DNA from: Thiotrichales bacterium
GTDB taxonomy: Bacteria; Pseudomonadota; Gammaproteobacteria; Beggiatoales; Beggiatoaceae
DNA length: 64,000 nt
Reading direction: 5' to 3'
NCBI GenBank assembly: GCA_016745035.1
Contig: JADGDE010000001.1
Location: 782,507-846,506, forward strand
Part shown: one piece after another, positions 17,079-20,082 of the stretch
How positions within the stretch are numbered: the first letter of the stretch is position 1
Layout of the letters: each line of letters starts with the position of its first letter
The notes under the pieces: model-generated
Database searches by the model: none
What the model was told of the DNA's origin: nothing
Seen by the model: only the letters and a program-made list of their open reading frames with translations
Made by a program: the position numbers and the translations under genes

Positions 17079-17732
17079 TTAGTCTTCAGCTTGCACTCGA
17101 CCCAAACCTTGTGACCACCAAGAGCGGTTTAAATAATAAACCAAAGCTAAAGGCAAAAATAAAACCACACAATACAACAAGGCGCTATAACTCATGCCAA
17201 GCATCTCCGCTTGCCAAGGGTAATAAGGTTTAAGATAAGTATTGATATGGGTGTTGCTAAAGACATAATAGCTATGTCCATCTGTTAGCGCGGATATTAA
17301 TTTTTCACTTAACCACAAACCTGTCAATAAAACGATGGCTAAAGCCATGCTGGCTGTGCCAATGGCTAAATGTTTCAAGCGCTGCTGAGGAACAGCAAGC
17401 AATAAAGCCCAAAGAATTGGCAAACCCAAGCTTATATTTTCTGGGGCTTTTTTTAGCGCCAGATTAAGCAAATGACGTTTATTTGGATCGCTGGGTTGTT
17501 CTGGCATCAATACCCGTGTATTAATAACCCAATCACCATTAGCTTGCACCTGTAATTGCGCATACAAATGATCAAAGCCTTGTCGTAACCACAGTTCTGT
17601 GCTGAGCTGTAAAAACGGGACAATGACTATCGGCAATAAATACCACCAAAGTAAAATCGCCAATATTAGCCAAGCACTGGCACGTAATACTAGCCAAACA
17701 AGTGCCTGAATATTATGCGTTTGCAAGTTCAT
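17079..17732 (-). CDS. Exosortase H-associated membrane protein
   Basis: A 217-residue membrane protein with about four hydrophobic helices: near the N terminus (WLVLRASAWLILAILLWWYL), mid-protein (LPILWALLLAVP; IGTASMALAIVLLTGLW) and near the C terminus (SALLYCVVLFLPLALVYYLN). It overlaps the exosortase gene by 20 bp, and a membrane partner of this size regularly accompanies XrtH exosortases. A soluble loop with VNTRVLMPEQ lies between the first and second helices. The function is inferred only from this partnership. Confidence 0.7.
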   Translation of the reverse strand: MNLQTHNIQALVWLVLRASAWLILAILLWWYLLPIVIVPFLQLSTELWLRQGFDHLYAQLQVQANGDWVINTRVLMPEQPSDPNKRHLLNLALKKAPENISLGLPILWALLLAVPQQRLKHLAIGTASMALAIVLLTGLWLSEKLISALTDGHSYYVFSNTHINTYLKPYYPWQAEMLGMSYSALLYCVVLFLPLALVYYLNRSWWSQGLGRVQAED

Positions 17733-18222
17733 GACTTTCTTTCTGAGTCGGTAAAACTAACCACAACCAAGTAATAAAGGCAATGATAACGGCAAAGTGT
17801 AATAACAAGGGCCACAATAATTCATGTACGACATCAAATTGTGTCCGCTCAAAGAAAACGCCGACGTATAACAGGCTAACAATACGGATTAAATTTAGCG
17901 CTTGAATAAAGCATAAACCGACGATTAAACCAATTAACTTCACATTCCAAGTTGCCGGATAACTCAATACGGCTGCCAGCCATAAAGCACAAATGGATAA
18001 GGCACTGCACACCTCTGTGATTTCCAGCGCAAACCCCGTGGGGGTATGACGAATAATCGCAGCGCTTAAACTAACTTGGTCATCAAATAATTGTATTAGC
18101 CAAAAACTGCTGTTTGCTAAACCCAGACAAAAACTATCGACCGCAGGCTTGATAGCCTCTAATTCTAAAACCCCCAGCAGGGCAATAGTTAAGAGAAAAA
18201 ACAAAGTTAAAAAGCGTAGCAT
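17713..18222 (-). CDS. xrtH: Exosortase, XrtH type
   Basis: A 169-residue integral membrane protein with the three exosortase catalytic positions: Cys C72 in ITEVCSALSICALW, Arg R113 in LNLIRIVSLLYVG and His H133 in DVVHELLWPLLL. Exosortases recognise short C-terminal sorting signals on exported proteins and cleave them. The small size and the associated membrane protein point to the XrtH subgroup. An AAAGGA site lies just before the ATG. No protein in this window carries an obvious matching sorting tail, so its substrates are elsewhere. Confidence 0.82.
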   Translation of the reverse strand: MLRFLTLFFLLTIALLGVLELEAIKPAVDSFCLGLANSSFWLIQLFDDQVSLSAAIIRHTPTGFALEITEVCSALSICALWLAAVLSYPATWNVKLIGLIVGLCFIQALNLIRIVSLLYVGVFFERTQFDVVHELLWPLLLHFAVIIAFITWLWLVLPTQKESHELANA

Positions 18223-18350: not shown

Positions 18351-18378
18351 AAAAAAAAGGCGCGACCTAAGTCGCGCC
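18351..18378 (-). terminator. Rho-independent terminator of the putative small RNA
   Basis: On the minus strand GGCGCGAC, loop TTAG, GTCGCGCC (18378-18359) is followed by eight T residues (18358-18351). It would also stop guaB read-through. Confidence 0.93.
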
Positions 18379-18457
18379 AAACCACCAAAGGAGGATGGAG
18401 GAGTCTGTTGGCTGTTAGCACCAAAGGAGGAGAGGAGGAGGATGGCTAACAACCAAT
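18351..18457 (-). ncRNA. Putative small RNA with CCUCC (anti-Shine-Dalgarno) loops
   Basis: The gene is read from DNA signals on the minus strand. A sigma-70 promoter (18493-18465) predicts a start near 18457. A 10-bp stem follows (GGUUGUUAGC, 18454-18445, with GCUAACAGCC, 18419-18410), closing a 25-base loop (18444-18420) made almost only of CCUCC and UCCUCC motifs and ending in UUUGGU. A 31-nt single-stranded linker (18409-18379) repeats the same motif (CUCCUCC, UCCUCC, UUUGGUG). A perfect 8-bp GC-rich hairpin with eight U residues ends the RNA at about 18351. The CCUCC motifs are complementary to ribosome-binding sites, so pairing with mRNA leaders is the natural hypothesis, as for the CCUCC-motif sRNAs of alphaproteobacteria. 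No long open frame is present on this strand. Confidence 0.75.
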
Positions 18458-18464
18458 GAGCAGC

Positions 18465-18493
18465 AGTATATAGAATATAAGTATATTAGTCAA
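18465..18493 (-). promoter_or_regulatory. Sigma-70 promoter of the putative small RNA
   Basis: On the minus strand TTGACT (18493-18488), a 17-bp spacer (18487-18471) and TATACT (18470-18465) differ from consensus by one base in each box. It points to a start near 18457, exactly at the base of the first RNA stem. Confidence 0.8.
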
Positions 18494-18550
18494 TACTTAT
18501 TTTGAAAAATAATAGCTGGCATTACGCAGCAACTGCTTTTGGTTTGGGAG

Positions 18551-18600: not shown

Positions 18601-20082
<1,482 letters not shown>

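Follow-up and report, generated by a model that had tools for sequence, protein, structure and literature searches.

A candidate gammaproteobacterial branch of the betaproteobacterial double-hairpin small RNAs at a Beggiatoaceae locus

The Rfam family RF02278 (Betaproteobacteria toxic small RNA) comprises the double-hairpin RNAs ncS03, ncS05, ncS27 and ncS62 of Burkholderia cenocepacia, bdhR1, and S17 of Bordetella pertussis. Its members have been described as double-hairpin or toxic RNAs (PMC5688073) and regarded as exclusive to the betaproteobacteria (PMC7011215). Overexpression of ncS27 slows growth and its silencing speeds it (PMC5688073). S17 has a 27-nt stretch that is fully conserved over the betaproteobacteria and directly represses BP2158; S17S impairs the growth of E. 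coli only modestly, on entry into stationary phase (PMC11722255). The Neisseria RNAs NmsRA and NmsRB (RcoF, NgncR_162/163) consist of three stem-loops and occur in tandem copies, with two anti-Shine-Dalgarno stretches, placed in the linker and in the loop of stem-loop 2, that cover Shine-Dalgarno sequences. When these stretches of NmsRA are mutated, every tested target except GltA escapes repression (PMC5362039).

The locus described here lies on the minus strand of the window, the 64,000-nt stretch of DNA from a Beggiatoaceae genome that was analysed. With a probability of about 80%, we read it as the gene of a trans-acting small RNA of the double-hairpin/toxic sRNA family, which would extend RF02278 to non-beta Gammaproteobacteria. 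At gathering thresholds, Rfam recognized only tRNA in the window. RF02278 matched the locus below its cut-off of 50 with 37.7 bits (E 2.4e-6 in a 261-base scan), collinearly over model positions 1-64 of 64 and including both hairpins and the U run. A UCUCCUCCA single strand, a CUCC-loop hairpin ending in GGUGG and a GC-rich terminator are common to the window RNA and RF02278, and several copies in some genomes are common to the RF02278 RNAs and the gammaproteobacterial copies. In contrast to the published double-hairpin RNAs, which are almost entirely two hairpins, the window RNA has a 5' hairpin directly after the promoter; its layout also differs from that of S17S, which is cut from a longer RNA. 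The Neisseria RNAs resemble the family of the window RNA in their stem-loops, tandem copies and two anti-Shine-Dalgarno stretches, but the window RNA has a further such stretch inside the loop of hairpin 1, and RF02877 (NmsRB) reached only 27.4 bits (cut-off 52).

Anatomy and conservation of the RNA gene

The gene (18351..18458, minus strand) has a predicted transcript of about 107 nt, supported by its promoter-to-terminator layout, its fold and the covariance model R1. The near-consensus promoter reported by the first-pass annotation is present as a sigma-70-like element, TTGACT-17-TATACT (18465..18493), with the -35 box at 18493-18488 and the -10 box at 18470-18465 separated by 17 bp; similar promoters occur in related copies. 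Transcription would start at about 18458, some 107 nt before the T run. Hairpin 1 (18408..18456) has stem arms at 18456-18445 and 18419-18408 with 12 pairs, one of them U-G, instead of the 10 first counted, around a loop CAUCCUCCUCCUCUCCUCCUUUGGU (18444-18420) that is exactly 25 nt long, as first stated. The hairpin is predicted by the fold and corresponds to a covarying 5' hairpin general in the family. Its loop holds tandem CCUCC and an extra copy of the 13-nt string UCCUCCUUUGGUG, whose last base lies within the stem. The same string recurs identically in the linker, which confirms the repeated CCUCC motif noted initially; the linker is, however, a small hairpin and not single-stranded. This core or linker CUCCUCCAUCCUCCUUUGGUGG (18382..18403), near-invariant in the alignment A1 and recovered by RNAalifold, consists of two single-stranded bases followed by hairpin 2 (CC.CCA/UGG.GG), with a U-U mismatch in the stem and the anti-Shine-Dalgarno loop UCCUCCUU, invariant across relatives. 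The GC-rich hairpin with eight T residues was correctly recognized: the intrinsic terminator GGCGCGAC-UUAG-GUCGCGCC-U8 (18351..18378) has its stem at 18378-18359 and the T run at 18358-18351, and its family stem pairs covary. The minimum free energy of the transcript is -39.9 kcal/mol, compared with -21.6 (sd 2.95) in dinucleotide shuffles (z = -6.2; 0 of 200 equally low).

A BLAST search with 156 bases against 57 relatives, independent of R1, detected CUCCUCCAUCCUCCUUUGGUGG-UUUGGCGCG-terminator as one block in many genera, both inside and outside the family. Relatives often have several copies, some of them in tandem arrays of as many as five, spaced by about 117 nt; the Burkholderia homologues, in contrast, are dispersed (PMC5688073). 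The core and terminator are almost invariant among the sequences compared. In A1, an alignment of 43 diverse copies, RNAalifold recovered the same two hairpins, and all 8 family stem pairs of the terminator have changed on both sides (97% of cells paired; 59 double-changed cells versus 13.3 in shuffles). The core hairpin hardly varies and gives no covariation information; its invariance in A1 is partly built in, since some rows were collected by the exact core pattern, but the BLAST search, which is free of this limit, gave the same core. Every copy allows a 5' hairpin to be drawn, though a freely folded sequence often yields one. In 30 copies it has 8 pairs, in which 94.8% of cells are paired and 50 are double-changed versus 16.5 in shuffles, and slid controls were far lower; these copies were picked for clean hairpins, a choice that favours pairing and to some degree also double changes. 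Sigma-70-like promoters precede 117 of 156 copies, compared with 8-15 in shuffled upstream regions; their spacer is nearly always 17 bp, and the -10 box mostly ends 25-50 nt before the core. The window copy shares with the gammaproteobacterial family defined by R1 the invariant core, the covarying terminator, the 5' hairpin and its own promoter. It is a single copy in its genome, matched by R1 with 71.6 bits (second-best place 15.8 bits), a score that is not independent because the window is among the 43 sequences from which R1 was built.

Only the window copy, out of 156, carries a second UCCUCCUUUGGUG/UUUGG module in hairpin 1, and among 5000 shuffles of the loop a 13-nt identity with the core arose just once. 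The most economical reading of these sequences is that the anti-Shine-Dalgarno module was copied into hairpin 1. C-rich 5' regions occur in 30 of the 156 copies, mostly as CCCC rather than CCUCC, and a second C-rich contact may be a trend of the family.

In a scan of named genomes, 21 nt of the core were found exactly in at least 118 genome stretches. The matches listed include Thiocapsa, Chromatium, Halochromatium, Thiohalocapsa, Thioalkalivibrio, Sedimenticola, Thiothrix, Beggiatoa, Thiomargarita, Arenicella, Thiodiazotropha symbionts, one Gallionellaceae MAG and one Acidiferrobacteraceae MAG. R1 matched 163 of 370 genomes drawn evenly from the class at E 1e-3 and about 112 (~30%, counted from the table) with at least 40 bits. 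Across 150 genomes sampled from the whole phylum, no other genome exceeded 36.1 bits and none outside the class exceeded 29 bits; weak matches should therefore be disregarded, and a threshold of 40 bits is cautious. No member of the family was found in the plasmids, phages and viral contigs searched. Weak R1 matches of 31-32 bits (L206 and L207; family f145, genomes of 3.7-6.7 Mb) read AUCUCCUCAUCA(A/G)GCUAAUCACGGUUUU followed by a terminator, with up to four copies per genome, and perhaps represent a separate small-RNA family.

Relation to RF02278

The likeness to RF02278 is not confined to the window. Nearly all copies of the relatives match the model over its full length as well, and in the whole genome (4.18 Mb) the RNA locus is its best place (E 9.2e-6). 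RF02278 matched 105 of the 370 class genomes, passing the cut-off in two. One of these two belongs to a family in which 27 of 39 genomes were above the cut-off, and the RF02278 matches suggest that this family is betaproteobacterial. A comparison of the tables showed that R1, which was built from copies outside this family but includes one Gallionellaceae MAG, recovers the RF02278 site at identical coordinates in 22 of these 27 genomes, with up to 53 bits. Because of the full-length matches and this reciprocal recovery, the gammaproteobacterial RNAs and the RF02278 RNAs are probably two branches of one family, a judgement made on about 50 nt, too short for a reliable tree. The copy of a Gallionellaceae MAG (L077) is intermediate, with the gammaproteobacterial core between beta-like UGUCUCCUCCA and GGAUAUUCAGC flanks.

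Independent convergence, that is, a gammaproteobacterial anti-Shine-Dalgarno RNA that does not descend from RF02278, is the strongest rival to this reading, and we consider it unlikely. CCUCC combined with a GC-rich terminator is a simple design, and CCUCC RNAs of other design exist (ar14, NmsR and AniS, all weak matches). Scores below the RF02278 cut-off in the window and in all but two of the 370 class genomes would also fit, as would the central hairpin, whose stem is continuous in the beta RNAs but interrupted by a U-U mismatch in the gammaproteobacterial ones; UUUGG in hairpin 2 is a further difference from RF02278. Against convergence stand the collinear full-length matches, with none at 1e-3 in 14 control genomes, the recovery by R1 at the same sites of the beta genomes, and intermediates such as L077. 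The proposal of mere convergence with the alphaproteobacterial CCUCC RNAs is not supported: ar14 (RF02344) reached 24.5 bits in the window, far from its cut-off of 58.8, while RF02278 matched over its full length. The CCUCC loops in stable hairpins and the terminator that ar14 shares with the window RNA speak for similar working and not for membership.

Under descent from a common family, the betaproteobacterial regulator (PMC7011215) looks like one branch of a family present in about 30% of the sampled class genomes, with carriers that include purple sulfur bacteria, Thioalkalivibrio, Thiothrix, Beggiatoa relatives and bivalve symbionts. The papers listed by a literature search with the core sequence were all unrelated, and there seems to be no earlier description of the gammaproteobacterial branch. 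The novelty lies in this branch, with its anatomy and its range, and in the double module. R1 offers annotators a ready model.

Candidate targets and mode of action

The beta relatives repress translation by covering Shine-Dalgarno sequences, and the window RNA most likely does likewise, judged by analogy and probable descent. Its U-rich 3' end would be bound by Hfq, whose gene is present in the window's genome (103.8 bits), and its two exposed UCCUCC/UUUGG modules would pair with Shine-Dalgarno regions in a subset of mRNAs, those whose ribosome-binding sites are long and rich in purines, thereby blocking initiation. With the second module in the 5' loop, one RNA could hold two sites or pair more strongly. 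The exposed anti-Shine-Dalgarno motifs most likely make it a translational repressor, one of the two roles originally suggested, though repression would not be broad. A Shine-Dalgarno match of at least 6 nt precedes only 84 of 1173 called genes (~7%), so that the RNA would be selective rather than global. Buffering of the ribosomal 3' end, also suggested by the first-pass annotation, is unsupported: CCUCC has the same sense as the 16S tail, so that the RNA would compete with the tail for mRNA instead of binding it.

On the 1.45-Mb contig holding the window, an exact complement of at least 10 nt to the core lies at the translation start of 6 of the 1173 genes, compared with none inside the same genes, a contrast inflated by a start choice that favours Shine-Dalgarno matches in crude gene calls (no trained gene finder). 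Shuffled cores gave a mean of 0.4 and a maximum of 5 at starts; this contrast is partly inflated too, as shuffling breaks the CCUCC string. Duplex energies to the start regions of the 1173 called genes were no better than those of shuffled cores. The six matches precede genes for an LprI-like protein, a PAS histidine kinase, a cytochrome c554-like protein, a cytochrome c7-like multihaem protein, a TonB receptor and a DUF302 protein, and would fit a regulator acting on the envelope and on respiration. The best complements were not significantly enriched in exported proteins. Genome-wide, a 17-nt complement with at most 3 mismatches occurred five times, once as the gene itself, versus three times for a reversed-pattern control; two of these matches are the ribosome-binding sites of genes for a TonB-dependent receptor and an exported protein with calcium-binding repeats. 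Among the 36 matches listed for CCAAAGGAGG-ATG starts in 37 genomes of the family, no ortholog clearly recurred as a target: the recurrences were repeat copies without a reading frame and the complement of the RNA gene itself, except for one response-regulator kinase resembling a candidate from the window's genome. Judged from sequence, the complement counts establish a match of the RNA to strong ribosome-binding sites but do not tell which mRNAs are regulated.

A sponge or decoy, whose C-rich loops would bind another RNA or an RNA-binding protein without repressing mRNAs, is less probable still than convergence. Several C-rich loops per RNA, the tandem arrays of relatives and the predominance of CCCC over CCUCC in the 30 copies with C-rich 5' regions would suit it. 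The invariant part is, however, exactly the Shine-Dalgarno complement plus UUUGG, the 10-nt complements concentrate at start sites, and the known relatives act on mRNAs (PMC5362039, PMC11722255). A core that stays frozen across such distances while neighbours, promoter details and 5' hairpin change points to many conserved targets or a universally shared partner. A wider reading, which we put forward only tentatively and think rather doubtful, is a pan-gammaproteobacterial family outside the Rfam cut-offs with a near-frozen 22-nt anti-Shine-Dalgarno core. It would be of ancient origin and control genes of respiration and the envelope post-transcriptionally in sulfur-oxidizing and related bacteria, with the window RNA as an evolved version whose anti-Shine-Dalgarno module was copied into the 5' hairpin to make two. 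The family raises a testable general question, namely how an RNA that mimics the anti-Shine-Dalgarno tail of the ribosome is selective.

Elsewhere on the window's contig (L221:16913-17302, plus strand), a small exported protein with GWNNGPW-type repeats is sulfur-globule coat-like by eye, had no Pfam match, and has an 8-nt core complement at its start.

Promoters and neighbouring genes

The guaB gene lies upstream on the same strand with its stop at 18601, which would suit a terminator or 3'UTR element of the guaB transcript, but the RNA has its own promoter, element and promoter recur in unrelated contexts, and guaB is not the neighbour elsewhere, so that this explanation is very improbable. 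The tie to guaB initially seen is likewise unsupported: guaB adjoins the RNA in the window genome only, and two other fetched loci have it 3-6 kb away. Flanking genes are not conserved among relatives; together with the own promoter and the 5' hairpin, these changing neighbours indicate a free-standing gene, as first proposed, and the layout, the fold and a conservation far above chance agree. Downstream of the small-RNA gene, two overlapping small membrane-protein genes (17079-18222, minus strand) were noted; the first is exosortase-like by eye, and neither had a Pfam match.

The single-copy promoters of the window (18471-18500), L009-L011, L013, L022, L039 and L175 share the element TTGACTAATAT at -35, and its reverse, ATATTAG, lies at the -10 box in copies of sulfur oxidizers; from their sequence and position, the two could be the site of a common regulator. 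Array-type and some single copies in Beggiatoa relatives (L012, L016-L021, L026, L027, L030, L081 and L137) have a different promoter and a palindromic box TGTTGCAnnGCACAA near the presumed start, mostly about 105-150 nt before the first core. We take this box to resemble PhaR-type operators. By eye, an alr-like gene precedes the array in L019, L026 and L027, and an mdh-like gene lies beyond it in L016, L018 and L019.
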